31,269 nucleotides of DNA, from positions 1-31,269 of IMG/VR virus record IMGVR_UViG_3300009158_002133. One strand, 5' to 3'. How positions within the stretch are numbered: the first letter of the stretch is position 1; every line of letters begins with the position of its first letter. A program made the position numbers and the translations under genes. Positions 10,279 through 30,901 of the stretch are shown here, piece after piece. Under the pieces are notes generated by a model. That model did not search any database. It was not told the origin of the DNA and saw only the letters and a program-made list of their open reading frames with translations. The DNA comes from a virus.

Positions 10279-10313
10279 AGTATTACCTTTCCTCTTTTCC
10301 TCCAGTTTCCACT

Positions 10314-10487: not shown

Positions 10488-10500
10488 CACAACAGTATCA
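10474..10500 (+). promoter_or_regulatory. Candidate ERF promoter (TTGACA + GTAACACAA)
   Basis: TTGACA (10474-10479) overlaps the end of the RHH gene, followed by GTAACACAA at 10484-10492 and the ERF ATG at 10501. The same pair occurs upstream of the leftward 402-aa gene. Confidence 0.35.
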
Positions 10501-11280: not shown

Positions 11281-11292
11281 CCCACAAAACAT

Positions 11293-11851: not shown

Positions 11852-12039
11852 CTAACATTCGTTTTATGATTAAAGGAGTTCATTCTACAGGCAAAGAACC
11901 TGTAAACACTTTTGAAGGTTGGACAAGATTTTATCATAGGAATCTACAGAAAAAAGCAACGGAACTTAATGAACAAAATGTTAAACGCTGGACTGCATTA
12001 TTTGCAAAACCTTTGAACAAATGGACACCCCTAAGTTAG
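11848..12039 (+). CDS. Hypothetical small protein
   Basis: A 63-aa basic protein, start ATG 11848 overlapping the upstream stop as ATGA. Aromatic and Lys-rich (W-T-R-F-Y-H-R-N-L-Q-K-K), probably helical. Overlaps the next gene by 19 nt. Function unknown. Confidence 0.62.
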   Translation: MTNIRFMIKGVHSTGKEPVNTFEGWTRFYHRNLQKKATELNEQNVKRWTALFAKPLNKWTPLS

Positions 12040-12266
12040 TATTCTACGAACATAGTTTTGAAGACCCAATCAAGACTAGCCTCACAAAAAGCGTACTTAA
12101 CTTAGGCAACGAGTGCCGTGTCTTGGCTGAGGAGAACGCTCGCTTAAAGACAGAGGTCTCTATGCTTGAGGGGCGTGTCCGCTACTGGAAGATTGAAGCA
12201 GAGTGCGACCACGGACGCTGGATGCGGACGCTGGAAGACCTAGAACATCTTCGTAATCTAAAATGA
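12021..12266 (+). CDS. Small coiled-coil protein
   Basis: An 81-aa protein, ATG 12021. Residues about 25-78 form a long charged helix with heptad-like Leu spacing (V-L-A-E-E-N-A-R-L-K-T-E-V-S-M-L). It is directly followed, with ATGA overlap, by another coiled-coil protein; the two could pair. Function unknown. Confidence 0.64.
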   Translation: MDTPKLVFYEHSFEDPIKTSLTKSVLNLGNECRVLAEENARLKTEVSMLEGRVRYWKIEAECDHGRWMRTLEDLEHLRNLK

Positions 12267-12520
12267 GAGAACTACCTTCAAGGCATCCAGACGCTTTACT
12301 AGAGGAAATTGAACGCCTCAAGGCAGAGGTCGAGAGGCTTAAAGAGGGCAACGAGTGCCTTGACCAGATGCACGAAAAGGAAATGGCAAGGTCGGCTTTC
12401 CTGTGCGAACAGGTCGAGCGGCTGACCAAGGCTGTGATGCACTCCCCTGCGGCTCAACTCAAATTCAAGGAACTTGAAGGCAAGACCACCTACGAAGAAA
12501 TCAATCCAGACAACCAATGA
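12263..12520 (+). CDS. Small coiled-coil protein
   Basis: An 85-aa protein, ATG 12263 coupled to the previous gene by ATGA. Residues about 10-62 are a strong coiled coil with regular heptads (L-L-E-E-I-E-R-L-K-A-E-V-E-R-L-K). The shared layout with its neighbour suggests duplication or heterodimer formation. Function unknown. Confidence 0.64.
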   Translation: MRELPSRHPDALLEEIERLKAEVERLKEGNECLDQMHEKEMARSAFLCEQVERLTKAVMHSPAAQLKFKELEGKTTYEEINPDNQ

Positions 12521-12723
12521 TTCACGAATTCCGCAATCCAATCCCAGTCAGCACCGACATCGGTTACGGCTGGCTAATGTATGTTCGGGATGGTGGGACT
12601 TGGTCTAACGATATATTTGCTATTGTCTTTGAGAAGGATGGTGTCATCCGTCATATGCGTACAGACCAGTTTAAGGTTTTGCGTAACGACACATTTGATA
12701 TCACTAATGAGCAAACTAATTAA
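12517..12723 (+). CDS. Conserved small phage protein
   Basis: A 68-aa protein, start ATG 12517 coupled by ATGA. The pattern H-E-F-R-N-P-I-P-V-S-T, then G-Y-G-W-L-M-Y-V-R-D-G-G and N-D-I-F-A-I-V-F, ending I-R-H-M-R-T-D-Q, is familiar from many phage early operons as an uncharacterised beta-rich protein. Its 3' end overlaps the metallophosphoesterase start by 17 nt. Confidence 0.7.
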   Translation: MIHEFRNPIPVSTDIGYGWLMYVRDGGTWSNDIFAIVFEKDGVIRHMRTDQFKVLRNDTFDITNEQTN

Positions 12724-13459
12724 ATTCGTAGCCGTTGGCGATAACCACGGCGATATGATTGACAAGGATGTCGCACAACAATTCTTTAAATTCCTAAAAT
12801 GGTTTGGAAAAGGAAACAATAACCTAGAAGTTATTCACCTAGGAGATAATTTTGATTTCCGTTCTATCCGCAGAGGTGCTGGAGGAAAAGAAGAAAACGA
12901 ATCGCTAGTGGCTGATGTCAAGGCTGGCAAAGAATTTATTAGTCGTGTACAACCTACAGTGTTTTTAAACGGAAACCACGACGACAGGCTAGACCAAATT
13001 ATTAATGGCTCTACAAGCGGTATGTTAGTTGACTACTGCAATGACTTAAAGTCTGACATTAACAATCATCTTAAGAAGAATGGCTGTAAGAAAATTTACG
13101 ATTACCACGCCGAAGAAGGCGTACACAGGTTAGGCAAGATTGCTTTTGTACACGGCTACACTTGCGGCGTTCGTGCAGTAGAAGAACACGCAATTCATTA
13201 TGCAGAGCCTCAGGGTGCTGTTATTATGGGACACTTGCACAGCATCCAGCAAATCAACGCTAGGAAGCACCAAGGAGCCGTTGGGTTCTCAGGTGGATGT
13301 CTATGCCGTAAGGCTGATATGACTTATAGCAAGAACCGCCTAGCCACATCAAAGTGGGGGTCAGGCTGGACTTATGGGTTTGTTCAAGGGTCGGACTGGA
13401 AGGTCTGGCAAGCCCATAGGGTCGGAAAAGAATTTATTTATTCTATCAAAGGACTATGA
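12707..13459 (+). CDS. Calcineurin-like metallophosphoesterase
   Basis: A 250-aa enzyme with all core metal-binding motifs of calcineurin-like phosphoesterases in order: G-D-N-H-G-D (residues about 10-15), H-L-G-D-N-F-D, G-N-H-D-D, F-V-H-G-Y-T and M-G-H-L-H. Such enzymes hydrolyse phosphomonoesters, phosphodiesters or DNA ends; the substrate here is unknown. In phage replication operons they may process DNA ends or nucleotide signals. ATG 12707 is chosen since it begins directly at the S-K-L-I-K-F-V-A-V-G-D strand; upstream codons would lie inside the preceding gene. Coupled downstream by ATGA. Confidence 0.87.
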   Translation: MSKLIKFVAVGDNHGDMIDKDVAQQFFKFLKWFGKGNNNLEVIHLGDNFDFRSIRRGAGGKEENESLVADVKAGKEFISRVQPTVFLNGNHDDRLDQIINGSTSGMLVDYCNDLKSDINNHLKKNGCKKIYDYHAEEGVHRLGKIAFVHGYTCGVRAVEEHAIHYAEPQGAVIMGHLHSIQQINARKHQGAVGFSGGCLCRKADMTYSKNRLATSKWGSGWTYGFVQGSDWKVWQAHRVGKEFIYSIKGL

Positions 13460-13695: not shown

Positions 13696-13883
13696 AAAAC
13701 CATTTAGTTTGTCTGTCTTGTAATACCGTTTTGTTAGCCCCAGCCCGTGAGGGTGAGCGTAGCACTTGCCGCTGTTCAAATAAGGCTTGGATTCAAAAAC
13801 TCAGCCACCCGAACTGTTGGTCATATGGTGGTCTTGACCCTCAGGCGGTACAACGGGTAAAACAGAAAGAGAAGGCTTCTTGA
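13692..13883 (+). CDS. Zn-ribbon-like small protein
   Basis: A 63-aa protein, ATG 13692 coupled by ATGA. C-L-S-C at 7-10 and C-R-C near 26-28 with a later Cys form a plausible zinc ribbon; the C-terminal part has W-S-Y-G-G-L-D-P-Q-A. Last gene of the rightward operon. Its 3' 83 nt overlap the end of the convergent late gene on the other strand. Confidence 0.66.
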   Translation: MKNHLVCLSCNTVLLAPAREGERSTCRCSNKAWIQKLSHPNCWSYGGLDPQAVQRVKQKEKAS

Positions 13884-14532
13884 GCATTGTATAAAGTATG
13901 CTTAAGGTTGTAATGCCTATGGCAGTCCCCACAATCCATATAAACCAAGTAGATTCAAAGACCCAAGCGGATGCCATAGCCAGCATACCCCCAGCCATAA
14001 TAATACCAGCCGACTTCTTGAATGGAGTAAATGCCATTGCCATCACGCCAATCACAAACAGTCCTAGCCCTGCCGTACTGTACTGCCAGAGTACCTTTTG
14101 TTTAAACTCACCGTCAGCCCTAGCGTGAGCCTCCTGTATCTCCAAGTCCTTCTGCTCTACCATAGCGTACAGGGCTGATGTCTCAGCGTCTACCTTAGAT
14201 GCTTCGTCCTTGTCCTTCTGGACAGCCTTGGTGTCATTCTGTTTAATGATACGGGTGAACTCCTCTACCTTGGCAACCGAGGGCTTAGAGATGCCAGACA
14301 GACGGGTTACTTGGGCTTCGACAACTTCTCTGACAGTTCCTTTATCGAGGTTAGGAACGACAGCAGTAAGGGCAGAAGCGGAATCAGAGACAACAGATTC
14401 GACCTTCGTGATGTAGGTGTCTTTCTCTTTGTTCGGCGTTTCAATGGGTAGAGGGGTTGGAGGTTGTGGCTGAGTGGAGCAACCAACTAAGGTTACAAAC
14501 ACAAAGATTATTGTAAGGCTTTGTAAACTCAT
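13801..14532 (-). CDS. Lipoprotein with C-terminal TM segments, u-spanin-like
   Basis: A 243-aa protein. Residues 1-18 are a lipoprotein signal with the lipobox L-V-G-C (Cys18), then a Pro/Thr linker. Residues about 40-145 are a long charged helical periplasmic region. Three hydrophobic segments at about 153-170, 174-192 and 196-216 end in a short cytoplasmic tail. A lipid-anchored N-terminus plus C-terminal membrane anchoring is the layout of unimolecular spanins, which fuse inner and outer membranes at the end of lysis; phage T1 gp11 is smaller and has one TM. Being next to the holin-like gene (ATGA overlap) supports this. It would imply a Gram-negative host. A virion membrane protein is an alternative. 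Confidence 0.6.
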   Translation of the reverse strand: MSLQSLTIIFVFVTLVGCSTQPQPPTPLPIETPNKEKDTYITKVESVVSDSASALTAVVPNLDKGTVREVVEAQVTRLSGISKPSVAKVEEFTRIIKQNDTKAVQKDKDEASKVDAETSALYAMVEQKDLEIQEAHARADGEFKQKVLWQYSTAGLGLFVIGVMAMAFTPFKKSAGIIMAGGMLAMASAWVFESTWFIWIVGTAIGITTLSILYTMLKKPSLSVLPVVPPEGQDHHMTNSSGG

Positions 14533-14834
14533 TTAGTTTTTTGTATAAATTTGTTTCTAATCCAGTTGAACAACTCTGGAGCAATAGAACCAGAAATACT
14601 GCACAAGACGCTTTTGTAGAAAGGGTCTATATGTGCGTTGTACAAAGTGAAATAACAAATGACCCCAACTATAGCCCCAGCAATAACCATCCTTATCCAC
14701 TTAAATGTGTAATACCTTTCATCGGTCAGGATGAGTCTAGCCAGCATCCCAATAGCCCCCAGTACGGCAAACAGCCAACCAGTCTTTTTGAATTCGTCGG
14801 CTATGGCATCCAATGATTGTGGGTCTTGGTTCAT
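14529..14834 (-). CDS. Holin-like membrane protein
   Basis: A 101-aa protein with three predicted membrane segments (about 19-36, 46-65 and 72-92) joined by short loops, a charged N-terminus and a basic C-terminal tail (R-N-K-F-I-Q-K-T-K). The pattern G-W-L-F-A-V-L-G-A-I-G-M-L-A-R and A-P-E-L-F-N-W-I resembles phage holins of the LydA/lambda-type three-TM class, which permeabilise the inner membrane at lysis. It is coupled by ATGA both to the 2424-aa gene before it and to the spanin-like gene after it. No endolysin gene is recognised next to it. Confidence 0.72.
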   Translation of the reverse strand: MNQDPQSLDAIADEFKKTGWLFAVLGAIGMLARLILTDERYYTFKWIRMVIAGAIVGVICYFTLYNAHIDPFYKSVLCSISGSIAPELFNWIRNKFIQKTK

Positions 14835-17800
14835 CGCTTAGGCTCCATTCTTCTGATTCTTTTCTTAGCATCTTCCTCGTCCTTATATACACCAAGCAAA
14901 TGTTTCTGAGGGTCATATACCCTATATGTACCATTGAGTCTCATAATTACATAGTTAAGAGCATTGGTGAGAACTGAACCATTACCATATGTTTCCGTTT
15001 TAAAACTTCTCCAAACCCTGATATCAGCCTGTGTGAAATCACGGGCTGGCATAGGCTTAGGCGGAACAGTTGTAGTAGGTGTAGGTGTTTTCTTAGGCGT
15101 AGGAACAGGTACACGCTTAGGTGTAGGTATAGGGGTTCCGTCTGTATCTATTGTAGTGGTTGTAGTAGTACCATCTGTATCTACAATTGTAGTTGTTGTA
15201 TTTCCATCTGTATCTACCGTTGTAGTTGTTGTATTTCCATCTGTATCTACTGTTGTAGTTGTCTTATCTGGTTCTATTACTGGGTCTACGGTAGTGGTTG
15301 TTTTTTCAGGGTCACCAATCATATTCCATTTCCCTGTATCTGGGTCACGGGTTCCTACTCTTATAGTTTTTCTACTTTCCTTTTGTCTGTCATAAAACTT
15401 TTGGTATTTATTTACATTCTCTCTAACTGCTGTAAGAGAAATTCCCATTGCTTCAGATTCTTCTATTGTTTTTTGATTAATCCTCCAACCAGCAGGGTCT
15501 TTCATTGCTTCATCTGAACCCTCAAATGGAGGCTGGTCTTCTCCTACTCTTTTCCATATTTCAAAATCACTTAGACCTTCAAGTGCATTAGGCTTTCCGT
15601 TTGCTTCAGCCCATCTTGTCATATTTGTACGCCAGTCATTAACAAACGCTTTTTCGTATGGGCTTAAAAATCCTTCAGGACGATTAGGAAGTTCAGACTT
15701 CTTTTTACCTCTTGCGTTTCCAACATCTATTTCAGAAATATCTTTACTTGCATCTCTTCCAGAATCAATTACACGAATCATTTCTTCAAGCACTTGATGG
15801 CTAAATGTACCTTCATATCCAATAAATGTACTTAATGCTTCAGACATTTGATTGTGCAAACTTGCTACATTCTTTTTAAATCCAACATTAACATCAGGCG
15901 TATCAAGTGATGTTAAGAGACTAGGCTTAACAGGCATATGGTTCCATCTTGCTAGGTGAGCAGGGTCATTAAATAGTGTAATCAAAAATTCTTGAGTAGA
16001 GCCAAGCCTATAAACACTTCTTTCTTTCCACGACCTAGGAAGTTCGTGTTCTCTATCTCCTTTAAATCCTTTTATTTCCCAAGGATTTACAACCCTATAA
16101 CCCTTTTTTAACTGTCCTCTGGTAGATTTTAGTTTTCCTGCATCTGTATAAACTTGAGCATTTAATTTATATCCTTTACTTTCCCAAAGAGTTTCAACTG
16201 TTCCTTTTGGATTAAGAATATATGTATTTTCACAAGCATATTTTTGCAACTCAAGCACTCTTGCAAATGCAACAACTTCAGGTGGAAGAATTATTCCATT
16301 CTTAATTTGTTCTTTTGTTTTTGTTAAAAACTTTTCTACATTGTATTTCCAAGCATCTCCTTCCATTGATGTAGGACTATCTGTTTCTATAAGACCTTTA
16401 AGTTCTGGTGCGGCATCACCAGCCTCTCTGCTTATTCTTCCAAAAATACTATGAGCAAGTTCTTCTAATGCAGTTCCTTCAAATGATTGACCATTTAAAG
16501 CCTGAACTCTTCTTGCTCTTTCATTGCCAGAATGGTTTCCAACATTACTTGCAAAATCACTTGCTGCCCAAGTTTTGTCTATTAACTCAGCAAGGTTTAA
16601 AAATAATTGTTGATGAGATTTACGCTCTACTACTCTTGTAATAGGAAATCTATATTTATCTTCTTTTTTAGTTCCATCATCTGCTTCATCTTCATCCATT
16701 TTTTGACGCTCTTCTGTTGCGTCTTTTATTTTTTGTCTTGCTTTTTCTTTTTCTTTAATTGCAGTCTCAATTGTTTCTTTTAATTTAGATATTTCTTTTT
16801 TAAGTTCAGGAGTGGGTGCTCTTGCATATTGATTTTGCAAAAGTTCATACCTTTCACGAAGCGTAGCCTCTCTTTGTGTTCGTGCTTCATACTGTCTTGT
16901 CATTGTAACTATTGTTTCTCCTCCAGTCCAAGAACCAGTATTTAACAATTCAACCTTTGTGTTTAATTGATTCTTGTCAGACAAAGACAATAACATCTGA
17001 GCAAACTTACTATGAATATCAACAGGCATATTTGGTGCTCTGTGTTTGCCTTGTTCTTTTACAAAATTAAGAACATCTCCTACTGTAACTACAGATTTAG
17101 CCTGTTGATGGTAATCTAAATACTGCCAAAGATTGTGATATTGAGGATTTGGTGCATTTGAAAAGTCGTGATGACCAGCAATGTCACCTGTTTTTGCAAC
17201 ATAAGTTACAAGTGATTCAAAATGAGTAGGGTCAAACGGAAGTTCTCTACTAGTATCTATTGCAAATTTTTCGTGATAACCAATAGAGTCATTGTAAATA
17301 GGTTCTTCACGGGGTACTTCATATCTTGATGTGCCTAGTTCACCAGCACCTTCGTTGGGGGATAGGTTAACAGTTCTATTTGTGCGACCTTCACCACGGG
17401 GCAGAGGCTCATACGCCGCACCAGCCTGAGCCTTCTCACGGGTGCTACCAATCATACGCTGTTGCTTATTAACCGTCTCAACAGGAACAATAAAGGAAAC
17501 ATCGAGATTTCCGCCATCCATCTGGTTGATGAAGATTACGCCGTCGTGTCCTTGCTCAATGGCTTCACCAAGAATCTTTTCAGTTCGTTTCATCATTGGT
17601 GTTTGTTGACCATCAACAACCAACGGATTATTAAACCTAATTGCCGATTTTCCAATATTAGGAGAATCAGATTCTGGTCTTCTAAAATCTGAACTTATTT
17701 CATAACCCAATTTCTTTGGGTCGTATCCTTGGTATTCTGGGTTTAAAACAGTTGTATCCGAAGAAGCAAAATAAGCACCACGCCGTTCCCCATTAGACAA

Positions 17801-20800
17801 AGGAAGGTCTTTTACTCTTAGTTCGTGTTTATATTTTTTGTCTTTAAGGAATCCTTGAGATGTATATGTTCCGTGAACGCCTACAACAACAACAGGTTCT
17901 CCAGTTCTAAATTGCTTAGAATACACAGCGTGTTGATAATACTCACGCATAGGAATATTGTCTGCTAAGTATCCAGAAAAATCGTTGTATTCAGGATTGG
18001 CTTTCTTGACCCACTTCTTTGCTTCTTGAATTTTCTTTGCAAAATCTGTAGCCCTAGAACCTGTAAACTCACTATGAAGTTGTTTTTGGGATGCTGGCTT
18101 GGCTAGGTCTTCCTCAAGTCTTTTTGCCTCAATATATTCACTTAGAGGAAGATGTTCTTTAAGTCTTCTATCTGGCAATTCGCTGTACAAACCTTCACGC
18201 TTAGGGTCTGCTTTTTCAAAGTTAGCCTTTGCTTTCTCGTTTAACTCTTTAAGTCTAATTCTTTTAGTCTGTCTATCAAGACCACCAAACATATCCTTAG
18301 ACATTTGTTCAAGCATCATTAAGGCTGTTTCTTGATTTATGTTACCTTCTCTAAATTTATTTATAAAGTCGGTATATCCTTCATCGGCAGTCTGGGCGAC
18401 AAGTTTTCTGTCTCCAACAAACTCTTGCATTTCACGGGTATTAAATAGGTTTCCAATGCGTCTGGCTTCGGCGGCTTCTCTTGCCCCAAGAACAGGAACT
18501 TCCCCTTCTCCTTCGTTGGGGGAGCGGTTGATGACGCTGTTGTCCGTCATATTGTCTTTGAGCGTAACCGAAGAAGGATTCTTAGCGGCATACTTCCGAG
18601 CACCTTCAGCCGCCTTATTAGCATCTTCAAATGTACCTATACGCTTACCTTGTTCATCATAGGCATCAGTCTTTCCATCTTGTTTTTGAATAAGTTTAAA
18701 TCCAGACGGATGCTTAAATATTGTTCCGTTAGGTGTAATTTCACTGTCCATTTCCCTAGGCGACCAGTTACGAACAAGGTCACGGTAGGCATTTTCAAAT
18801 ACAAACGGGACGCTTTGATTGCGAACACGAAGATTAGTCATCCTGTTAAGGCTGAATGAGAAAACGGATGAAAGAGTATTTCTATTTATTTCAGCGTTAG
18901 GAGAATTAATAAATGTGTCAGCCTCACCCTTAGCAAGACCAAGCACTTGGTGCATAGCATTTCTACGCTCAGAGCCTTTGTCATCAGTCCAAAGTTCAGC
19001 AGAAGGCTTTCTATCAGGATGGTCGTGTGCTCTAGAAGCATTTTCAAGATACCTATAGAAGTCTGCCATAAACTCTGTATGGTTTCCATTCCATAGCGAT
19101 TGAATGTGAGGGTCAGACCAAGTGTTATTAGCACGAATTTCAATCACCTTATAATCAAGCATATTGCCTTTGAACTGGAAATCTCCATTCTTACTAATGC
19201 TTATATCAAGTCCATAGACAACTCCAGTTCTAGACTTAAACGGCACTCTGCTACCATACATTCTGCTAGGGTTATTAACATCACCAATACGCTCACCAGA
19301 AGCAGCAATGCCTCCAAAGTCTACTATGTTTCCTCCAGCCTTTCCAGAAGTTATAGATTGGAATAGGCTAATTTTGTTAGCCATAGCCCTAGTCATATGT
19401 CCAGAGTTAACAATGTTATCTAGTATCTCAGGGCTAAGATTACCCCTAATGTTACCTTCTCCATCTATAAAGAATGTACGCTCAGCCTCAGGTATACCCA
19501 TCAGCAACTTGTAAACAGCCTTACCTTTAATTCTGTTTTCTTTTTTAATTTGAGCCTCTGTGTTGTGTTTATAGTTACCAGAAATGTCTCTAGAAAATAC
19601 GCCGTCAAGACCTTCTCCTTCAATAAACCTAACCTGATTTTCTTTATTAAGGTGAGAGATGTCAAATTGACCAGTTTCATTAACTGTCTTTTCAATCCTA
19701 AGCATATCTCTAAAGAACATATCCATAGCAGGATTAACTACACGCTGAGTTTTACCTGTTATTCTTCCAAACATATCACGCTTAGCAGGGGCAAATACCT
19801 CATCAATAGGCACTAGTTTTTCGTTACCATTTTCATCAATAAATGTGCGTCCAAAATCAAACTCAGGTGCTGTCATTCCCATCCTGCTTCTCCAGTAGTT
19901 TCTAAATTGCAAACTTGCGTTCTCTAAAACACCACGAATTCCTGGCAAATCACCACCGTGATATAGCCAGTCAACAGGTTTATCCATCACAAGATGAGAG
20001 AAATAGTAAGCACCAAATTCTTCACTAAGGTGTTCAAGCAAAGGACGACCACCAAGAGAAGGGTCAGATACCATAGCACCACTTTCTTCGTATTCCTTTT
20101 CAGCAAGTTCAAGACGGCTTAGAGCATCTGCCTTTTCTGCTACATCCTTAAACTCAGCATCAATGTATCTTCTGAACATTTGCTTAACTTCCTTAGGGTC
20201 AACTACACCTTTATCAAGTATAGCACCATCATTGCCTCTTGTGCCAATAACTTTTTCTTTAACTGCCTGAGAGTAGTAATCCTTCATCGCACTTGTGCGT
20301 AGGATAGAGTGAAAAAGTTCGTGTCCAAGTGTAGCCCTAGGAGCGGCATCAGCATTAATATAGATTTTAACCATACCATTTGCCTTGTTCTCAACTACAT
20401 AACCATTTTGTTGTTCAAAAGATTTGAGGCTTAGAGGTTGGTCGCCATCTTTAAGGAACTTCTTACCATCATATGTTTCAGGGTCTAAATTGTTTTCGTG
20501 AAGGAAATCAGCATACTGCTTTTCAGAGAATATTTCAAGGTGTGTGTTAGGATGGATTACATCCTTTGAGGCAAGTATAGCATCAAAGTTAAATCCTCTA
20601 GACTTAGCCCAAGCCTGAGCCTTATCCCACATTTGAGCCTGTTCAGGATGGATATCCCTAAGACCTTCAATAACAAGTTTAGCCTGAATAGAAGTTCTTT
20701 GTGCTGTAGTTCTGCCAGTAACATCAGCAAGCAACTTTCCTCCAGTAGCACCTATGCCACCTAGCATAATGCCAGCACCAGCACCACTAGCCGCTCCCTC

Positions 20801-22105
20801 AGAGCCTCCACTCCAATATCCTAGAGCCGCACCAAACTGAGCACCGTGAGCGGCTCCTCCAGCAACATTAGATACATATCCAATAAGAGGGTCAAACCCA
20901 TCAATAATTTTAAGAAGAGCCTTAGAATGTCCAGATAGTTGAATACCATCTTTTACCGCATCATCCATTGCTTGTTTAGCATAAGAAGCAATTCCTCGCT
21001 CACCTTTTTGAATCTGATTTCCAATTACTGACAATGCTTCACCTACACCAGCGGCGGCAGTTCCGTAGACATAAGCACCAGAAGCATCAGTAAGAAGAGG
21101 TATGCTATGACCAAAGTATCCAGAGCCAAGGCTTCCTATTCCACTCATTTTCATACCAGTTCTAAAAGCATCAGAAGATACACCAGTAGCGGCAACAAAT
21201 GCTTTTTCACCTGTTGCTATACCATAATCAAGCGTTGCTCTTGTTGCTTTTCCTACAAATTCAATAGGAGCACCAACTGCATATTTAATTGCTCCACCAA
21301 GAACCATACTCTTTAAAGCGGATGTTCTAGCACCAAGTGTAATTCCTCGCTCAGCCATACCAAGCATTGAAGCAGAAAGACCAAATGCTTTACCAAAAGG
21401 AACAAACATTAAAGGGTCAGCAACTAAAGCAGACGCTTGAACAAAATCATTATTTAAATGGTTTTTATCAAATATTTGTGTTGTTCTTCCAGCCGCTAGG
21501 TCATTAGAGTCTCTTAGAAACTTTCTAGCCTCAAGAAATACTTTATATGACTCAGTGCTGTCTTCTTTTCTGCCATTAAGAAGATTGAAAAACTTAGCCT
21601 GAGGTGATGTAGAGTCAGCAGATTCAGCCGCTATTCCGTAATAGCCTCTGACAAGTTGAGAAGCACCCTCAAGCACACTTGCAGGAATCTTGGAAATATT
21701 TTCAGCCGAAGGGTCTTCTCCAATAGAAGCAAATGGTTTATGTATCAGTGTCTCAAAAATATGACCAGCCGCACCAGATAAAGCGGCAAGATGGTCAGAG
21801 TCTTTCTTTCTGTAATAGTCATTTAACTTAATCCATTCAGACTCAGTAGGGTCTTCTGGAGTTATATTTTGACCTTTTTTACGAGCCTCTTCATAGGCTT
21901 GGTCTTTTTCTGCAAGGTCGTGATGAATGTCTTCACCAGTTTTAGGTGCAGTAATTAAAGCATAAGCCTCATCTCTTTCATCTGCTGGCAAAGAATTAAG
22001 ATAAGAATCTATCTGTTTGTCTCCAGTATATTCTTTTCCGTTAGTAGTCCGTCCATTAACAGACGGAGTTACAATCATATCTGGATTTGCAAAAATATCA
22101 GCCAT
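14831..22105 (-). CDS. Giant polyvalent virion protein (HExxH peptidase, ART-like)
   Basis: A 2424-aa protein, ATG 22105, probably packaged and injected with DNA. Visible modules: Gly/Ala-rich hydrophobic stretch about 330-460 (possible membrane insertion); Zn metallopeptidase with L-G-H-E-L-F-H at 593-599 and a likely third ligand E695/E696 in S-E-E-F-G-A-Y-Y; a region at about 1405-1540 with V-H-G-T (H1411), G-A-Y-F-A, N-P-L-V-V and G-H-D-G-V-I-F, the signature of ADP-ribosyltransferases in polyvalent proteins; a coiled coil about 1749-1809; a degenerate E-E-L-A-H near 1881-1885; and an 11-residue Thr-rich tandem repeat about 2279-2323 before a Pro/Thr linker. Such modules are known from phage and conjugative polyvalent proteins. 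Linker repeats S-P-N-E-G near 1195 and 1582 bracket the ART part. Catalytic activity is inferred. Confidence 0.72.
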   Translation of the reverse strand: MADIFANPDMIVTPSVNGRTTNGKEYTGDKQIDSYLNSLPADERDEAYALITAPKTGEDIHHDLAEKDQAYEEARKKGQNITPEDPTESEWIKLNDYYRKKDSDHLAALSGAAGHIFETLIHKPFASIGEDPSAENISKIPASVLEGASQLVRGYYGIAAESADSTSPQAKFFNLLNGRKEDSTESYKVFLEARKFLRDSNDLAAGRTTQIFDKNHLNNDFVQASALVADPLMFVPFGKAFGLSASMLGMAERGITLGARTSALKSMVLGGAIKYAVGAPIEFVGKATRATLDYGIATGEKAFVAATGVSSDAFRTGMKMSGIGSLGSGYFGHSIPLLTDASGAYVYGTAAAGVGEALSVIGNQIQKGERGIASYAKQAMDDAVKDGIQLSGHSKALLKIIDGFDPLIGYVSNVAGGAAHGAQFGAALGYWSGGSEGAASGAGAGIMLGGIGATGGKLLADVTGRTTAQRTSIQAKLVIEGLRDIHPEQAQMWDKAQAWAKSRGFNFDAILASKDVIHPNTHLEIFSEKQYADFLHENNLDPETYDGKKFLKDGDQPLSLKSFEQQNGYVVENKANGMVKIYINADAAPRATLGHELFHSILRTSAMKDYYSQAVKEKVIGTRGNDGAILDKGVVDPKEVKQMFRRYIDAEFKDVAEKADALSRLELAEKEYEESGAMVSDPSLGGRPLLEHLSEEFGAYYFSHLVMDKPVDWLYHGGDLPGIRGVLENASLQFRNYWRSRMGMTAPEFDFGRTFIDENGNEKLVPIDEVFAPAKRDMFGRITGKTQRVVNPAMDMFFRDMLRIEKTVNETGQFDISHLNKENQVRFIEGEGLDGVFSRDISGNYKHNTEAQIKKENRIKGKAVYKLLMGIPEAERTFFIDGEGNIRGNLSPEILDNIVNSGHMTRAMANKISLFQSITSGKAGGNIVDFGGIAASGERIGDVNNPSRMYGSRVPFKSRTGVVYGLDISISKNGDFQFKGNMLDYKVIEIRANNTWSDPHIQSLWNGNHTEFMADFYRYLENASRAHDHPDRKPSAELWTDDKGSERRNAMHQVLGLAKGEADTFINSPNAEINRNTLSSVFSFSLNRMTNLRVRNQSVPFVFENAYRDLVRNWSPREMDSEITPNGTIFKHPSGFKLIQKQDGKTDAYDEQGKRIGTFEDANKAAEGARKYAAKNPSSVTLKDNMTDNSVINRSPNEGEGEVPVLGAREAAEARRIGNLFNTREMQEFVGDRKLVAQTADEGYTDFINKFREGNINQETALMMLEQMSKDMFGGLDRQTKRIRLKELNEKAKANFEKADPKREGLYSELPDRRLKEHLPLSEYIEAKRLEEDLAKPASQKQLHSEFTGSRATDFAKKIQEAKKWVKKANPEYNDFSGYLADNIPMREYYQHAVYSKQFRTGEPVVVVGVHGTYTSQGFLKDKKYKHELRVKDLPLSNGERRGAYFASSDTTVLNPEYQGYDPKKLGYEISSDFRRPESDSPNIGKSAIRFNNPLVVDGQQTPMMKRTEKILGEAIEQGHDGVIFINQMDGGNLDVSFIVPVETVNKQQRMIGSTREKAQAGAAYEPLPRGEGRTNRTVNLSPNEGAGELGTSRYEVPREEPIYNDSIGYHEKFAIDTSRELPFDPTHFESLVTYVAKTGDIAGHHDFSNAPNPQYHNLWQYLDYHQQAKSVVTVGDVLNFVKEQGKHRAPNMPVDIHSKFAQMLLSLSDKNQLNTKVELLNTGSWTGGETIVTMTRQYEARTQREATLRERYELLQNQYARAPTPELKKEISKLKETIETAIKEKEKARQKIKDATEERQKMDEDEADDGTKKEDKYRFPITRVVERKSHQQLFLNLAELIDKTWAASDFASNVGNHSGNERARRVQALNGQSFEGTALEELAHSIFGRISREAGDAAPELKGLIETDSPTSMEGDAWKYNVEKFLTKTKEQIKNGIILPPEVVAFARVLELQKYACENTYILNPKGTVETLWESKGYKLNAQVYTDAGKLKSTRGQLKKGYRVVNPWEIKGFKGDREHELPRSWKERSVYRLGSTQEFLITLFNDPAHLARWNHMPVKPSLLTSLDTPDVNVGFKKNVASLHNQMSEALSTFIGYEGTFSHQVLEEMIRVIDSGRDASKDISEIDVGNARGKKKSELPNRPEGFLSPYEKAFVNDWRTNMTRWAEANGKPNALEGLSDFEIWKRVGEDQPPFEGSDEAMKDPAGWRINQKTIEESEAMGISLTAVRENVNKYQKFYDRQKESRKTIRVGTRDPDTGKWNMIGDPEKTTTTVDPVIEPDKTTTTVDTDGNTTTTTVDTDGNTTTTIVDTDGTTTTTTIDTDGTPIPTPKRVPVPTPKKTPTPTTTVPPKPMPARDFTQADIRVWRSFKTETYGNGSVLTNALNYVIMRLNGTYRVYDPQKHLLGVYKDEEDAKKRIRRMEPKR
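15138..15270 (-). repeat. 33-bp tandem repeat (DTDGNTTTTTV)
   Basis: About four in-frame copies with 33-nt period (CCATCTGTATCTA starts at 15171, 15204 and 15237, with a variant at 15138). They encode D-T-D-G-N-T-T-T-T-T-V units in the giant protein, followed by a Pro/Thr-rich linker. Confidence 0.85.
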
Positions 22106-22107: not shown

Positions 22108-25100
22108 TTATTTATTTTGTTTATCGTATTGAGCGTACTGTTCTCTAACTGCTTTATGTTTCTTTTCGTTAGCATAGTAAATTGCTCTCATATTACGAAG
22201 GTCACTAGCCTTGTCTTTAGGCATTTGAACTTCAAGTCCATAAATTTGAGGGTCTTCAACAAGACTAGTTGAAAGCCTAGATATAAGGTCTTCATACTTT
22301 GACCTAGTTGTTGATTGAAGAGTCCAAAAATCAGTAGGATTAGTAACAAGGTCTTGCAAAAGTTTTTGTTCAAAGTCTGACACGGAACCTACGCCAATGA
22401 GTTCTGTTCTAAGTTGTGCAATAAGCGAGTATGTCATAGCCTTAGCCCTTCCCCACTCAGAAGGCATAAATGAACGGAATGTTACTTCATTAAGTTTTCT
22501 TATTTGGTCTGCAATGGCAACAGCCTTAATTTTCTTATGGTAATCACTTCTGAACTTTGTGGCATCAGTAGGGGTTCCAAAAGAACCAAGACCACCAAGT
22601 TTAATGCCAGTACCTTTTATGAATTCAGTAGGCTCATATGTACCATCTGGCTTAAGTTCTCCAAATTGAACAGCCTTATTTGAAGAAACTTCGTGAGGCT
22701 GAAGTTGCTTACCTCCAAGACCAGCAACTTGTTTCCATTCACCCTTACCATCTGTATAGAAAGCACCATAAGGTGTTTCTTTAACTTGAAGTGTGCTTTC
22801 TGGGAATTGCTTTCTCCACATATCTTCAAACCCAGCAGGAATATGACCAAGTTTTCCCTTAATAAATTCCTTCATTTGAGTTTTCTTTTGCTCATTTGTT
22901 TGAGGAATAACAATTTCCTTACTAGCAATAGGTCTAGAGCCAACATCAATATCTTCTTCTAGGAAGTCATTTGTGTCTGCACTTATTCCATTAGCCTGTG
23001 CAATCTTTGTTGCGGCAAGTTTTGCTTTTGCGTCAATTTTTAAATCTTTTGCAAGTTGAAGCAAGTTATCAACAGTTGCATTAGCCTTTACGGTAGCAAG
23101 TTGACTTAAGTTATTATCGTGTATTTTCTTAAGGTCAGCAATTTTTGTGTCAAGTTCAGTAGAAATTGCTCCCTTTTCATATGCTGAAATTTTAGTAGGT
23201 TTTGTAAAATAATCAGTCCAAGGATTATATCCTCCATCTGTGCCTGTTCTAACTTTTCTTATATTCCCAAGAGTACTAGACAGTTCTTTTCTAATGAATT
23301 GACTGTTAGCATCATCAGGTATGCTAAAATTTGAATCAGGAGCACCAGCAAGTTCAAGTGCAAGAGACTCCCAAAATATAGATTTTCCAGCAGATTGAGT
23401 TACTGCTTTTCCAAGAAGAGCCAAATCCATACCAGCCTCAGCACTTCCAGCAAGTCCAGCCTCAGCAATAGCCCTTGATGTTATTTTTCCTACTTCAGTG
23501 TCAGTAAGTGCTCTGCCTAATCTTTTAGAATGACCATCAAAAGCCTTTGTTGCTATTTCTCTAGCCCTATTAAGCCTTTTTGCAGCATAGTTTGTTTTTT
23601 CAATTTTATTTGCAAACTTAAGTGTTTTAGCCCATCCTCCACCAATCCATATAGATGCCGCTTGAACACCAACAGATATAGCGGCGGCGGCATCAGGGTG
23701 TTCTTTTTGAAGTTGACCAAAATATCCATAGTCAACAGAAGACGCATCTCCTTGCATCACATTTTCTCTTATCCTTTGAAGGTATTCAATGGCTGGTTTT
23801 ACAGACCTATTTTGACTTTCTAGTTCAGCATTAGATTCATCAAGATGCTGTCTAGCCAATTGTATGTCTTCTATCTCTTGAGGAGAATAAGTAGCACGAA
23901 CTCCAGCAGGAAGTGAAGGCGGTTTAGCAGTGCTTCCAACTGGTCTAAGTTTAATTGGTTCAAATGTACCAGTATCAAGACCGCCATCTTCTTCACTTAC
24001 AGGTTCATTTACTTTAGAAGGAATAATTCCACCAATTGTACCGTTGTATGTCAAATTTCCAGTATCAGGGTCTACTGTATAGTTTGCTGGTGTTCCATTT
24101 GTGCCATCAGAAGGCAGACCACCTTCAGCCTCTTCTTGGGAAATTTGTGCTTCAATAGGCTCAATAGATTGTGGGTCACGGTCTAGAGCCTTATTTTGCT
24201 CAACAGATGGAGGAATGATAATTGTTTCACCACCCTTAAAGTCGTGATTTTCATTTATACCATTAGCCTTCATTATTGCTTTCCTTGTAGTTCCTGCTTT
24301 CTGAGCAATAGCCATCAGCGTCATTCCCTTTTTAACTGTATACTTACCGCCTGTGTTTGGAGGGAATGGGTAAACAGTAGATTCACCATCTTTAGCAGGA
24401 GCCGCAGGAGAATTAGCAGAGGCGGCAGGGGTAGAAACTTTAGCAGGGGCAAGAGCCGTAGGAGCCTGAGGGGTTTCAATAACCTTAGGCGGAGCCATAG
24501 GTGAACTAGCGGCAGGGGCTTCAGCAACCTTAGGCGGAGCCATAGGTGCTTCTGTTTTAGGGGCAGAAACTTTAGCAGGAGCGTTTGCTTTTATTTTTCC
24601 TTTAACTACACCTTGTAGCCAGTCAAAATATGCAACTCCACGCTGAGCCTCTGGACTAGATTTATAAATACTTTCAATTTCTCCCCAAGGAATTCCAAGA
24701 ATTTGACTTGCTTTATCAAGCAAATCATTTGCTCCCTGTTCCGTAAGAACTCCATTTTCATCATAAGGTTCAGACTTTCTGTTAGCAACACTTGGAGCAG
24801 GGGTAGCAGATGGAGCAGTAACAACAGGGGCAACTCTAGCCGCAGGAGCGACAGGAGCCGCAGTAACAGGGGCAGGAGTCTCAACAACCTTAGGTGGTGC
24901 AACAAGTGGTTCTGGAGTGTCTTCAGAATCATCAAGAACAATCTGAGGAACTTGAAAACCTTTTCCTCTGCTTGCTTCAGCCCTATTTATTTCAGCAGAA
25001 GTAGTACCTCCGCCAAGTTCATTAATAATTGCGACATTAGCCTTTATTTGTTTTAAGACTTTTTCAAGTCTTGCCTTTCTTTCTGTATCTCCAATTGCAC

Positions 25101-26109
25101 CCCAAGTTGTTCCAATTTTAGCAATAAGTTGCTTCGATTCTGCAATAAGTTTTTCATTCTCATCAGCCAATTTAACAGCCTGAGGATGAAATCCTCCAAT
25201 TCTTACAGGAGCCACAGGGGTAGCCATAGCACCATCAGGAGCACTAGCGGCTCTAGCGGCTGAAGCAGGAGCACTTTCTCCACTACTAATATAAGGATTA
25301 ATAGTATCCCAATTTTGAGTATATTCAGCCATTCCACGAAGACCTTCAAAAGAAGGGTCATTATCAATATCAATGCCTTCAAGCATTTGATTTTGTGACA
25401 GAATATCCAAAGCGTGAGCCTTCTGAGCAGGGTTCATCTTTGGATGATTCTGAATCACAGAAGGAAGACGCTTCTTCCAGTCGGAAAGGAAGACATTCTT
25501 AGGAATTACCTTAACCTTATTGTTATTTATTGCGTCAGCATTTTGCTCAACCCACTTGTCATAATTTGCAGAAACATTAGCAATGTTAGCATTATAAGAA
25601 AGATTAGGACTCCAGCGTGTATCTTCAGGATTTGCACCAAAAGACATAATCCTTGTCTGTTCTCCCTTTGCTGGCTCAAGAAGACCGTCTTCATAAACAC
25701 GACGAAGTTTTGCGTTCTGAACAAGACCCATATAACCAAATGTCTCATTAAGAGCCTTACCTTGAGCACCAACTTCTGCAACAGCGGCAAGTTTAGCGTT
25801 ATGACTTCCTTTTCTTCCCTTGGCTATTGCTTCAAGAATTGGAGTAACTCCTTCAACTAGGTGAGCCGTTTCAGGCTCACTACCAAGCATAGAAGCAAGT
25901 GCTGTATATTTTTGACCAGCGGCATCAAGTTCTGAGTCAGCATATTGAGCCTCCCCCACCATCTTGTAATAGTCGCCAACGCCTTTAGTTAGGGTTTCGG
26001 AAACAGAGTTTATCCCAGCGGCATAGTTCTTGCCAATCTGAGCACCCATTTCGTAAAGCCCCTGAACGGGAGCAATACCGCCTGTATATTTAGAAAATTG
26101 TGATGCCAT
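22108..26109 (-). CDS. LysM-containing internal virion protein
   Basis: A 1333-aa protein, ATG 26109, without a Shine-Dalgarno. The first 300 residues are helical, Ala/Gly-rich. Residues about 395-585 are a Pro/Ala/Val linker with A-P-P-K-V repeats. A LysM domain sits at about 588-635 (Y-T-V-K-K-G-M-T-L-M-A-I-A-Q-K-A-G-T, then N-G-I-N and I-I-I-P-P), which binds peptidoglycan N-acetylglucosamine. A later part contains A-A-A-I-S-V-G-V-Q-A-A-S-I-W-I-G, a short hydrophobic stretch, and the C-terminus has L-R-T-E-L-I-G-V-G-S-V-S-D-F-E-Q-K-L-L, a segment seen in phage internal structural proteins. Probably helps the ejected complex cross the cell wall. No glycosidase motif found. Confidence 0.72.
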   Translation of the reverse strand: MASQFSKYTGGIAPVQGLYEMGAQIGKNYAAGINSVSETLTKGVGDYYKMVGEAQYADSELDAAGQKYTALASMLGSEPETAHLVEGVTPILEAIAKGRKGSHNAKLAAVAEVGAQGKALNETFGYMGLVQNAKLRRVYEDGLLEPAKGEQTRIMSFGANPEDTRWSPNLSYNANIANVSANYDKWVEQNADAINNNKVKVIPKNVFLSDWKKRLPSVIQNHPKMNPAQKAHALDILSQNQMLEGIDIDNDPSFEGLRGMAEYTQNWDTINPYISSGESAPASAARAASAPDGAMATPVAPVRIGGFHPQAVKLADENEKLIAESKQLIAKIGTTWGAIGDTERKARLEKVLKQIKANVAIINELGGGTTSAEINRAEASRGKGFQVPQIVLDDSEDTPEPLVAPPKVVETPAPVTAAPVAPAARVAPVVTAPSATPAPSVANRKSEPYDENGVLTEQGANDLLDKASQILGIPWGEIESIYKSSPEAQRGVAYFDWLQGVVKGKIKANAPAKVSAPKTEAPMAPPKVAEAPAASSPMAPPKVIETPQAPTALAPAKVSTPAASANSPAAPAKDGESTVYPFPPNTGGKYTVKKGMTLMAIAQKAGTTRKAIMKANGINENHDFKGGETIIIPPSVEQNKALDRDPQSIEPIEAQISQEEAEGGLPSDGTNGTPANYTVDPDTGNLTYNGTIGGIIPSKVNEPVSEEDGGLDTGTFEPIKLRPVGSTAKPPSLPAGVRATYSPQEIEDIQLARQHLDESNAELESQNRSVKPAIEYLQRIRENVMQGDASSVDYGYFGQLQKEHPDAAAAISVGVQAASIWIGGGWAKTLKFANKIEKTNYAAKRLNRAREIATKAFDGHSKRLGRALTDTEVGKITSRAIAEAGLAGSAEAGMDLALLGKAVTQSAGKSIFWESLALELAGAPDSNFSIPDDANSQFIRKELSSTLGNIRKVRTGTDGGYNPWTDYFTKPTKISAYEKGAISTELDTKIADLKKIHDNNLSQLATVKANATVDNLLQLAKDLKIDAKAKLAATKIAQANGISADTNDFLEEDIDVGSRPIASKEIVIPQTNEQKKTQMKEFIKGKLGHIPAGFEDMWRKQFPESTLQVKETPYGAFYTDGKGEWKQVAGLGGKQLQPHEVSSNKAVQFGELKPDGTYEPTEFIKGTGIKLGGLGSFGTPTDATKFRSDYHKKIKAVAIADQIRKLNEVTFRSFMPSEWGRAKAMTYSLIAQLRTELIGVGSVSDFEQKLLQDLVTNPTDFWTLQSTTRSKYEDLISRLSTSLVEDPQIYGLEVQMPKDKASDLRNMRAIYYANEKKHKAVREQYAQYDKQNK

Positions 26110-26112: not shown

Positions 26113-27006
26113 TTATGCTCTAGCCTTTCCTGTAAACGGGTCAAATGTGCCAGTTCCACTAAAGAATCCAGTTCCAGTCTTAGCCATACCAGAAACTCCA
26201 GCAGTAAGAAGATTAGCGGCTCCACCGACCAAAGCACCAGTAAGAGCAGACTTATTGGCGGCAGTAGACATACGGGCTTGAAGTTCGTTAGACTGGTTAG
26301 CCGTAATTAGGTTAGCATTATATTGAGACTCAGGCTGGAATATCTGAGCACCAAGACCCTGCGACATTCCATAAGCAGAGCCATAAAGATTAGCGGGAGA
26401 ATAAGCCTGAGACTGACCTAGGAACTGTTGCCCATAGGTAGCCATAGCGTTCTGGAAATTGCCTTGACCAAAACCATATACATTTCCAGCAAATTGTCTG
26501 GCGTTGTTTTGACGGTCAGTGCCATAGGCATAGTTGTTAAGAACCTCAGCCTGTATGCCTTGATTGCCAGACAGTCCTCTAGCCGTCATAGCCTCCCTAG
26601 CCGCTTGCTGGGATTGCTTTTGCATTTCAGGCGTAAGGCTTCTGCCAGCGGCTAGGTCGCCCTGAGCCTGACCTAAAAGAGTGTCGTAAAGACTAGCCGT
26701 ACCACTGCCTAGACCCTGTCTGTAAGCCGCTAGAGACTGTTCTCCCATCTTGCCATACACAGGAGCCATAGCATCAGAAAACTGGCTACTGAGAGCCGCC
26801 GCTTGAGGAATTACTTTGCCGTAGGAAGCCAGTTGATACTGCATCTGCTTATCCATCATATCCTGTTGCAACTTCTGGTACAGGGGTTGATAGTAAGCCT
26901 CTTGTTGAAGGAGTCTTGGTTGGATTGCTTCCTGTCCAGCCATAGAATCAAGCATTTCCTGCTTGTAATCTCTTGGCTTAGGTGCTTCTACTTTTGTGCT
27001 TCCCAT
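26113..27006 (-). CDS. Internal virion / DNA-ejection protein
   Basis: A 297-aa protein rich in Ala, Gln, Gly, Tyr and Met, with no Trp and few charges. The N-terminus is helical and charged; the middle has Q-Q-A-A-R-E-A-M-T-A-R-G-L-S-G-N-Q-G and repeated A-x-x-Y-G-Q; a glycine-rich hydrophobic segment near the C-terminus (about 252-280) could insert in a membrane. This composition is typical of the small internal or ejection proteins of podoviruses that lie next to two larger ones, as here. No domain name is justified. Confidence 0.65.
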   Translation of the reverse strand: MGSTKVEAPKPRDYKQEMLDSMAGQEAIQPRLLQQEAYYQPLYQKLQQDMMDKQMQYQLASYGKVIPQAAALSSQFSDAMAPVYGKMGEQSLAAYRQGLGSGTASLYDTLLGQAQGDLAAGRSLTPEMQKQSQQAAREAMTARGLSGNQGIQAEVLNNYAYGTDRQNNARQFAGNVYGFGQGNFQNAMATYGQQFLGQSQAYSPANLYGSAYGMSQGLGAQIFQPESQYNANLITANQSNELQARMSTAANKSALTGALVGGAANLLTAGVSGMAKTGTGFFSGTGTFDPFTGKARA

Positions 27007-28579: not shown

Positions 28580-30901
28580 TTAGTCTTTGTTTGAGTTGGT
28601 CTTTTTTTGTTGCGTTGCGTATATGTACGCTGAGCGAATAGATGGTCGCTTTGAGTAAGAAACGAATCTTATTAAAGCATCTGAACCAGTTTTTCTGATA
28701 GGGTTAGACCTTGTGTAGTCTTCATAAGAAGAAGAGCCAAAAGAGTCAACCTTAACAACTACATCAGGATTTGATACATCTACATAGGTTTCTATCTTTT
28801 CGCCACCAGATGTAAGTAGACTTGCTTCGTATGAACTAAAGCGTTTATCGCCTATGTTCTTAAAGGAGTACTTTCGTGTCTCAAGAACGGCAAGAATGTC
28901 GTTTTTAGAGAAAGAAAGGGAGTCTAGGACTATTACATTAGCGTTAGGGATTCCAGCACTATTAAAAGAAGAAACCAATATAAGATTTCCATATTTTCCA
29001 TTTGCTATGTTTACAGCCGTATCAACTCCAATAATAGGGGTAGGTAAAATTGGGCTTCCAGTAGAGTCGCCAAACTCATCGTAATCTAGTTCTTCTGTAA
29101 GGAAAATTCCTTGATAGTTATCAATCAAGAACATACGACGCTGGTTGTCTTTTTTAACAACAATAAACTCTTTAAGTGAAACGGACTCAGCCTTTTTAAA
29201 TGTGCAATTATAACCAAGTGTATAGTTCCAAGTAGGAGACGCAGGACTTCCAGAATACGGAAGTGTTATAAAAGAACTTCTTGGAATTTTTATTATAAAA
29301 TATGTATCAGAAAATCCAAGTCCTGCTGGCTGGTCATAAATAACCTTATATGTGCCACTAGGAGGATATCCATTTCCAGTATTAACTGTTCCATTCCAAG
29401 TAGGTTCTCCAAAGGTTACATTTACATAATCTCCAACAGCAAGTCCGTGTCTAATTGCATAACTACTTTTAGTTATCATAACAGGAATATATTCACCAGA
29501 ATACATAGGGCTATTTAAACCACTTGTCCAAAGTTGCCAACTATCAGCCACAACAGGATTTTTAGTAGTTACAAGTGTAGGATATGTATCAACCGATTCC
29601 CATTGTTTTAAGATGAAGTTAAAGACCAATACAGTATTGTTGACAGTACTATCGTCAAGCGGAACGGCAAGGTAGTAACGATTATTCCAATAGGTAGCAA
29701 CAGCGTTGCTTGCGTAATTACGATTGATTCGCTGGATAACATTATCAATTGGAGCCGATATAGGGTCAGACATCGTGAGCAACTTCATAGACTCAGCAGA
29801 GGCTGGTTGAGGTTGCAGGAAGTACACACCGTTATCAGAAAGGAAGAACACGCCGCCACCAGCCTGAACTACACTCTTCTTAGCAAGACAACCGATGTCT
29901 GTAGCCAGAGTCTTTATGTATGAATTTGAACTTAGCGGAGCACTATTTACATATCTGTCATTGCCAACTGAAATGTAGTATATGCTGTTACGCATAAACA
30001 CAAGAAACTCATTGAGCGTCCAAGGGGCAACGCCTACAAGGTGGTCATTGCTTCCGTTATTAATTGAAAAAGCATCTGATATATCCCAATGTTCGTAGTC
30101 AAGATAATTGCTAACAGAAACCGTGTCGTAGTTTCTTAGTGTTTCTGTTTCAGCGTGATATGCACCAATAGCAACAAGCCTGTTGCCATAGTACATCAAT
30201 GTTGAACACTTAGGAAATTCGTGTCCAGCACCAGCACCAGCAGGAAGTGCGGTTATTGTACTGCCTAAATCCCACATTAAAGGACGCTTATCAAATCCTC
30301 TGCTAATAAAAATCTTGTCAACCGCACTGCAAACATCACAACCTTCTGGTGTGGTAATTAGTTCTGAGGCATTATAAGAACAAGATGCTCCAGTTATTAC
30401 ACCTGTAGAAGCAATTCGCTCCATTATATATGTAAATGTATTTGTTGTTTTGGATGTTATAACAAACAATCCAGAATATGCAGTAGTGCTACATTCTACA
30501 TATACGCTTGCACCAACTAAAAGTCCGTGTGTTGCTTTTGTTACGGTTACAGTTTGACTGTCAGTAGAAGTGAGAGTTGCTCCAGTTATTCTGTTAGGAA
30601 AGTAAATCTTAGCAGAAAGAGTCTCTGTCTGAGGGTTGTATGTGTACAGACCATTTGCAACAACTAGAACAATCATTTCCTGTCCACTAGGAAGGATGTA
30701 AGTTCCTGTAGAATAGATTGTTTGACCAACAATGTCTCCAATAGTCTTTCGCTCTAGACCCTTTCTGGTCTGAGCAACACCACGGTCTAGTCTAAAATTC
30801 TGAGACTTGCTAAGGATACCTTCGGGCAAAGAACTAGGATTATCACGGCTGTTAAGCCCGACAAACGCTATATCTCCATCCCTTTGGTATTCATTAGGCA
30901 T
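28580..30901 (-). CDS. Large beta-rich virion structural protein
   Basis: A 773-aa protein, ATG 30901, overlapping the upstream stop as TAATG. The first 50 residues follow a pattern common in phage structural proteins: G-L-N-S-R-D-N-P-S-S-L-P-E-G, N-F-R-L-D-R-G-V-A-Q-T-R-K-G-L. Residues about 108-178 carry the H-G-L-L-V beta domain shared with the next gene; a weaker third copy lies around residues 485-565 (R-H-G-L-A-V-G-D-Y-V). Residues 180-470 show repeated strand pairs with aromatic-Gly turns, suggesting a beta-propeller. Probably part of the tail tube, neck or tail tip. No transmembrane segment. Confidence 0.68.
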   Translation of the reverse strand: MPNEYQRDGDIAFVGLNSRDNPSSLPEGILSKSQNFRLDRGVAQTRKGLERKTIGDIVGQTIYSTGTYILPSGQEMIVLVVANGLYTYNPQTETLSAKIYFPNRITGATLTSTDSQTVTVTKATHGLLVGASVYVECSTTAYSGLFVITSKTTNTFTYIMERIASTGVITGASCSYNASELITTPEGCDVCSAVDKIFISRGFDKRPLMWDLGSTITALPAGAGAGHEFPKCSTLMYYGNRLVAIGAYHAETETLRNYDTVSVSNYLDYEHWDISDAFSINNGSNDHLVGVAPWTLNEFLVFMRNSIYYISVGNDRYVNSAPLSSNSYIKTLATDIGCLAKKSVVQAGGGVFFLSDNGVYFLQPQPASAESMKLLTMSDPISAPIDNVIQRINRNYASNAVATYWNNRYYLAVPLDDSTVNNTVLVFNFILKQWESVDTYPTLVTTKNPVVADSWQLWTSGLNSPMYSGEYIPVMITKSSYAIRHGLAVGDYVNVTFGEPTWNGTVNTGNGYPPSGTYKVIYDQPAGLGFSDTYFIIKIPRSSFITLPYSGSPASPTWNYTLGYNCTFKKAESVSLKEFIVVKKDNQRRMFLIDNYQGIFLTEELDYDEFGDSTGSPILPTPIIGVDTAVNIANGKYGNLILVSSFNSAGIPNANVIVLDSLSFSKNDILAVLETRKYSFKNIGDKRFSSYEASLLTSGGEKIETYVDVSNPDVVVKVDSFGSSSYEDYTRSNPIRKTGSDALIRFVSYSKRPSIRSAYIYATQQKKTNSNKD

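Follow-up and report, generated by a model that had tools for sequence, protein, structure and literature searches.

Repeated peptide tags at the module borders of a giant polyvalent protein from an uncultured podovirus-like phage

The IMG/VR virus record IMGVR_UViG_3300009158_002133, a stretch of 31,269 bases analysed over its whole length and called the window here, belongs to an uncultured short-tailed, podovirus-like phage. Its minus strand encodes a giant protein of 2424 amino acids (aa), a variation on the polyvalent proteins already known, in which short repeated peptide tags mark the borders between modules. The protein would be built on an N-terminal chassis, consisting of a Gly-rich and possibly membrane-active segment, a zincin-like metallopeptidase domain with an HExxH motif, a conserved domain and a small 'bookend' domain, followed by exchangeable effectors and a C-terminal bookend. 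In the window protein the effector is a predicted ADP-ribosyltransferase (ART). The pattern of the tags makes it plausible that they are processing sites of the zincin in the same chain. The favoured explanation, given slightly better than even chances, is that the giant is a large polyvalent ejection protein, and that the tag-bracketed ART is freed by the zincin in cis and acts on the host.

An unbiased self-comparison of the window protein reveals only one strong 12-residue repeat, INRSPNEGEGEV at residue 1192 and VNLSPNEGAGEL at residue 1579. The core of both copies is SPNEGxGE, at 1196 and 1583; according to the model the first lies inside a predicted disordered segment, while such a segment has its edge at the second. 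Related tags occur up to six times per protein in the relatives of the giant, their flavour being set by the S, K, Q or M that precedes P-x-E-G (SPNEGxGE, KPAEGD, QPAEGE and MPAEGE). In the variable part of giants with an HExxH motif, P-x-E-G is found 101 times, compared with 22.6 times in shuffled sequences (maximum 38), an enrichment of ∼4.5-fold. The motif is not enriched in the chassis, taken as the first 1000 residues (5 versus 8.4), nor in a distant clade of giants of 3.5-3.7 thousand aa (loci L086-L099 and L103) where EExFH replaces HExxH (1 versus 3.1 shuffled). This clade keeps the remaining zincin residues and is without P-x-E-G tags. The flavour is coherent within a protein: the residue before P-x-E-G agrees in 80 of 125 within-protein pairs, as against 23 on permutation (maximum 46).

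Cleavage could also occur in trans during head maturation, by another protease of the phage or host, for instance a prohead protease of xE-type specificity. The predicted disordered locations of the tags would suit such an enzyme, and P-x-E-G resembles the sites of Glu-specific prohead proteases. This is nevertheless improbable, given that the EExFH giants have no tags and that no tags of matching flavour were found in the neighbouring operon genes of the relatives checked, in stretches that mostly end short of the capsid genes.

A second kind of tag accompanies ART modules elsewhere. In 24 unrelated phage proteins with an ART-PolyVal domain, DIR[FY]-x follows the ART (28 occurrences versus 5.3 shuffled) and likewise tends to agree between copies in one protein (10 of 16 pairs versus 1.9). 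Tags of the forms DIRFS, DIRYS, DIRYQ, DIRFA and DINFS repeat after the ART modules of loci L116, L118, L122, L126, L142 and L160, with one form kept per protein. A wider cassette grammar can be put forward, although it is more apt to be wrong than right: effectors would end in self-processing tags matched to their own zincin, modules would be swapped and their tags re-tuned to the local protease, and SPNEGxGE, KPAEGD, QPAEGE, MPAEGE and DIRFS/DIRYS would be flavours of one system. The literature searched, largely papers free of subscription, yielded no published description of such tags, and the papers searched name no cleavage sites of polyvalent proteins.

For the protease itself, an earlier note made from the letters of this DNA had pointed to a metallopeptidase domain, with LGHELFH at 593-599 and a candidate third ligand about 97 residues further on. 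The position is right, with HELFH running from residue 595, and all 34 aligned relatives keep H595, E596 and H599 unchanged; the chance expectation of HExxH in a protein of this composition is ∼0.08. The third-ligand candidate is real, because E695, E696 and Y701, in an EEFGAYY helix 96-97 residues beyond HELFH, are invariant in the same relatives. In the AlphaFold2 model of residues 480-1185 (alignment of 34 sequences, mean predicted local distance difference test (pLDDT) 80), strands at 522-526, 568-572 and 579-584 are accompanied by the HELFH helix at 592-604 and the EEFGAYY helix at 689-708. Conservation and model together thus give an HExxH helix and a later helix with a Glu ligand, as in zincins.

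Foldseek alone found no significant match to the zincin model (E > 0.1). Residues 480-813 were then structurally realigned with Foldseek's candidates (VIA Z), and the top ten rows are all zincin-like, with Z of 5.5-7.4 over 165-190 residues; the next reach at most 3.9. The best matches are the N-terminal regions of Certhrax (Z 7.4 over 174 residues) and lethal factor (6.5). Lower rows of the realignment contain the peptidase domains of collagenase and MMP-11, and the HExxH domain of the N4 virion RNA polymerase (vRNAP; residues 2124-2238) is also among the lower matches, with Z 3.6. No Z reaches 8, and the prediction that residues 480-770 adopt a zincin fold therefore depends on Z and the invariant motif together. 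Among curated peptidase profiles, DUF5700 weakly matches one of 16 relatives (E 0.025). In L055-L073 an insertion of ∼170 residues lies within the zincin region, ahead of HExxH.

The ART proposed in the same note also bears up. All its motifs are found in the region of about 1405-1540 where it had placed them (VHGT at 1410, GAYFA at 1443, NPLVV at 1493 and GHDGV at 1519), and 17 relatives show no variation at H1411, G1412, T1413, Y1458, N1493, P1494, D1498, H1520, D1521, D1530 and D1535. The ART-PolyVal family pattern is H, Y and D (Iyer et al., PMC5512222). In the model of residues 1195-2240 (alignment of 21 sequences, mean pLDDT 68), H1411 belongs to strand 1, and a later strand starts at D1535. 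The best matches of the ART model in the PDB are PARP/tankyrase catalytic domains, with Foldseek probabilities of 0.9-1.0 for most top rows and Z of 6.0-6.8 on realignment with PARP catalytic domains; the best viral model is a 'PolyVal ADP-Ribosyltransferase' (Foldseek E 5.8e-4, probability 1.0). Residues ∼1395-1560 are therefore predicted to fold as an ART. Prediction of structure by segment had been named as the check able to overturn the note, and it returned matches to both zincin-like domains and ARTs.

The suggested search with the Pfam ART-PolyVal profile (PF18760, cut-off 31.2 bits) gave no match to the window segment. Its homologues in the same slot of relatives also stay below the cut-off, one of them scoring 16.3 bits, and other modules in relatives score above it, at 62, 60.5 and 36.6 bits. 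Direct profile comparison of the window-type ART with canonical ART-PolyVal is weak (23.7%), and reaches 84% through intermediate sequences.

One might still regard the giant as only a structural internal protein, its zincin and ART folds being inactive remnants. The clade with EExFH instead of HExxH would be in keeping with this, as would the Phe that replaces the PARP-type Tyr in many relatives. It is nonetheless very improbable: none of 34 relatives departs from the HExxH and EEF motifs and none of 17 from the H, Y and D, and other enzymes take the place of effector modules.

The exchange of modules emerges from comparison of the relatives. The open reading frame (ORF) runs from an ATG to a stop at 14831 and is real, its frame being confirmed by full-length IMG/VR homologues with 61-66% identity. 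Together with these, profile searches gave 69 and 67 further, mostly overlapping loci, and 67 giants remained after removal of near-duplicates, some of them incomplete and mostly of 2.2-3.8 thousand residues. All are in uncultured viral contigs. No homologue was found in a cultured-phage collection, nor in bacterial or archaeal genomes, where short-pattern scans make for weak negatives; PADLOC had no match on 16 relatives. Two candidates for a cultured relative, the 2769-aa protein of phage C75C1 and ORF26/27 of Pf-WMP3, were rejected after checking, the latter for having no detectable homology to the giant. Searches of the whole giant against Pfam, PHROGs and PDB sequences gave nothing useful.

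Homology falls steeply along the chain, with residues 480-770 present in 70 giants, 770-1130 in 49 and 1600-2240 in only 8-9. The N-terminal chassis is common to about 60 distinct relatives, and the effector modules (types of ART, GNAT) are interchangeable. In the window protein and in L040, L041 and L045, the chassis is followed by a tag, the window-type ART and another tag. In L167 and L168 an ART-PolyVal domain comes between the chassis and the first tag; L047 has an ART-PolyVal domain and a degenerate tag after the chassis; and L044 has a GNAT-like domain, assigned through homology to relatives with no direct Pfam match, and then a tag. This arrangement suggests that units of module plus tag are swapped between phages. 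Two or three GNAT-like modules stand in tandem, with tags between them, in L072 (residues 2124-2559), L055 (1953-2259) and L064 (1952-2249). The further effectors that the earlier note had thought possible thus exist in relatives, as ART-PolyVal and GNAT modules, and the window protein has no further identified enzyme. Residues 1124-1176 have a homologue in the last 70 residues of the chain: a hidden Markov model (HMM) of that C-terminus detects the internal copy in 22 relatives, with E values as low as 5e-11. One small domain, present twice, thus flanks the variable region on both sides.

Several points weigh against the favoured explanation. HExxH giants without recognisable tags exist (L058, L070 and L182), and the EExFH clade is a single evolutionary event, a chief weakness of the idea that the tags are cut. 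The ART and zincin of the window protein score on no Pfam model, ART-PolyVal and the peptidases included. Y1445, of GAYFA, is in strand 2 and is Phe in many relatives; the invariant Y1458 is outside that strand. N4 vRNAP, with an HExxH domain of a similar kind, is packaged unprocessed, according to PMC5512222. Identical tag residues share a codon in 298 of 568 cases, where 250 are expected, and given this excess part of the tag similarity may come from recombination of DNA.

The last two points, the second together with the 14 nucleotides common to the two SPNEG cores of the window (TCCCCCAACGAAGG), also speak for a rival in which the tags are flexible linkers, or recombination joints for shuffling, and the protein works uncut, its zincin being structural or acting on host proteins. 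Tags do stand in or beside predicted disordered segments, and module exchange does take place at them. The excess of shared codons is modest, however, and because codon choice in most identical tag residues is near-random, selection on the tag is mainly at the protein level; the codon comparison only partially supports a pure DNA-recombination origin. A joint, moreover, need neither have one flavour per protein nor track an intact HExxH. The rival is accordingly judged possible but doubtful.

The gene order speaks for delivery together with the DNA. On the minus strand, genes for a tail tube/head-closure protein and for proteins of 383, 138, 297 and 1333 aa, the last with LysM, precede the giant, and holin-like and lipoprotein-like genes follow it. 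This order parallels gp12, gp14, gp15, gp16 and holin of T7 and is kept in relatives, with the giant as the third large ejection gene after the tail, gp14-like and gp15-like genes, in the position of gp16. Two hallmarks of polyvalent proteins are present: disparate biochemical activities in one chain, here the zincin-like and ART domains, and a phage structural gene context, between ejection-type genes and a holin. The T7 and N4 proteins encoded at this position enter the host by ejection (PMC12633501). By analogy of gene order, the giant is probably ejected with the DNA.

We infer ejection, cleavage at the tags and the ART substrate, the computed results being the domain anatomy with its two conserved folds and its bookends, the gene order, the swapping of modules and the repetition and coherence of the tags. 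The giant would be packed into the head and leave it together with the DNA, as a gp16-like component of the ejectosome. Cuts made in cis by its zincin, at the tags or next to them, would then free the ART unit between the two SPNEGxGE copies, and this unit would ADP-ribosylate a host protein early in infection.

Table 1. Features of the giant gene and its neighbours in the window (aa, residues of the giant).
Feature	Position	Strand	Basis
2424-aa giant polyvalent protein gene	14831..22105	minus	ORF and full-length homologues
Gly-rich hydrophobic N-terminal region, many GxxxG, aa 215-460; possible membrane or channel segment, from sequence features	20726..21463	minus	conserved Gly columns, hydropathy, GxxxG count
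Zincin-like metallopeptidase domain, aa 480-770	19796..20668	minus	invariant motifs, model, fold match
HELFH zinc-binding/catalytic motif, aa 595-599	20309..20323	minus	invariant in 34 relatives
EEFGAYY helix, aa 695-701, candidate third zinc ligand Glu	20003..20023	minus	invariant; helix in model
Conserved chassis domain, aa 770-1120	18746..19798	minus	present in 49 giants, confident model
Small domain, first bookend copy, aa 1124-1176	18578..18736	minus	C-terminal-domain HMM
Inter-module tag INRSPNEGEGEV, aa 1192-1203	18497..18532	minus	12-mer repeat paired with aa 1579-1590
Mostly helical N-terminal part of ART unit, aa 1205-1340	18086..18493	minus	common to ART-slot relatives; helical in model
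ADP-ribosyltransferase domain (H1411, Y1445/Y1458, D1535), aa 1395-1560	17426..17923	minus	conservation, model, fold and profile matches
Inter-module tag VNLSPNEGAGEL, aa 1579-1590	17336..17371	minus	12-mer repeat; edge of ∼70-residue predicted disordered segment
Subfamily-specific, mainly helical unit, aa 1650-2230	15416..17158	minus	homologous in only nine giants; partly confident model
Thr/Pro-rich repeat linker, TTTTVDTDGN repeats, aa 2260-2350	15056..15328	minus	sequence
Conserved C-terminal domain, second bookend copy, aa 2355-2424	14834..15043	minus	HMM homology
Tail tube/head-closure protein (gp12-like)	28580..30901	minus	family match
297-aa protein, T7 gp14-like position	26113..27006	minus	gene order only
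1333-aa LysM protein, T7 gp15-like position	22108..26109	minus	Pfam LysM E 1.2e-7
Holin-like protein directly downstream of giant	14529..14834	minus	phrog_6384 E 1.7e-4
243-aa putative lipoprotein, whose position would suit a spanin	13801..14532	minus	sequence

For residues 770-1120, Foldseek and structural realignment gave no clear fold match, and none was assigned to residues 1650-2230; in both cases the searches do not exclude a fold. The 243-aa putative lipoprotein has no informative family match. Plus-strand genes at 8004-13459 encode a DUF3799/PDDEXK nuclease, an IstB/DnaC-like ATPase, an ERF annealing protein and a calcineurin-like phosphoesterase. Between small genes at 221-3899, eight near-identical hairpins (GGGGAGCC-TTKC-GGCTCCCC) follow runs of A on the plus strand, at about 231-254, 829-852, 1574-1597, 2076-2099, 2408-2431, 2935-2958, 3471-3494 and 3868-3891. 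They are terminator-like for the minus-strand small genes and have no Rfam match; several of these genes share a 'VEPNTSGD'-like leader peptide.

Among known systems, T7 gp16 has the same place in the gene order and no sequence family match to the window giant (Pfam, PHROGs). It is about half the size of the giant and carries a transglycosylase. At the same operon position the Phormidium phage (cyanophage) Pf-WMP3 carries ORF26/ORF27, an internal protein with a peptidase and, next to it, a ParB-like nuclease protein; this counterpart differs in having 1495 aa, no HExxH, no P-x-E-G tags and no detectable homology to the giant. N4 vRNAP (gp50, PMC12633501) is, like the giant, a very large protein in the third ejection-protein position, with an HExxH subdomain and a likely membrane-active N-terminus; it is ejected, as the giant probably is. 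The zincin is N-terminal to the effector in the window protein and C-terminal in N4, and the window protein matches no RNA polymerase family in Pfam or PHROGs. With ART-PolyVal (PF18760) the window domain shares the ART fold, the name of its best viral structural match and what may be the H/Y/D catalytic pattern, with the Tyr less clearly placed than H1411 and D1535; it gives no match to the Pfam model.

The closest parallel is with the polyvalent proteins. As described in PMC5512222, these are likewise very large multidomain phage proteins with zincin and ART domains (and GNAT, as in the relatives), predicted to be delivered alongside DNA, with the zincin predicted to process the chain. The window family is separate in having its own chassis and in its absence from the cultured-phage collection and bacterial genomes searched, and a term search of that paper did not find a repeated protein-specific tag such as stands at its module borders. 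Processing by metallopeptidases (MPTases) has itself been proposed since 2017 (Iyer et al. 2017, PMC5512222); the idea that the tags are the cleavage sites is the main new testable point. The tags supply exact candidate sites, 1196 and 1583 in the window protein and as many as six in a single relative, along with a genetic correlate, enrichment only where HExxH is intact, so that the proposal can be tested directly. By delimiting modules they also help to cut the giants into units for expression and structural work, and show how phages may exchange injected effectors.
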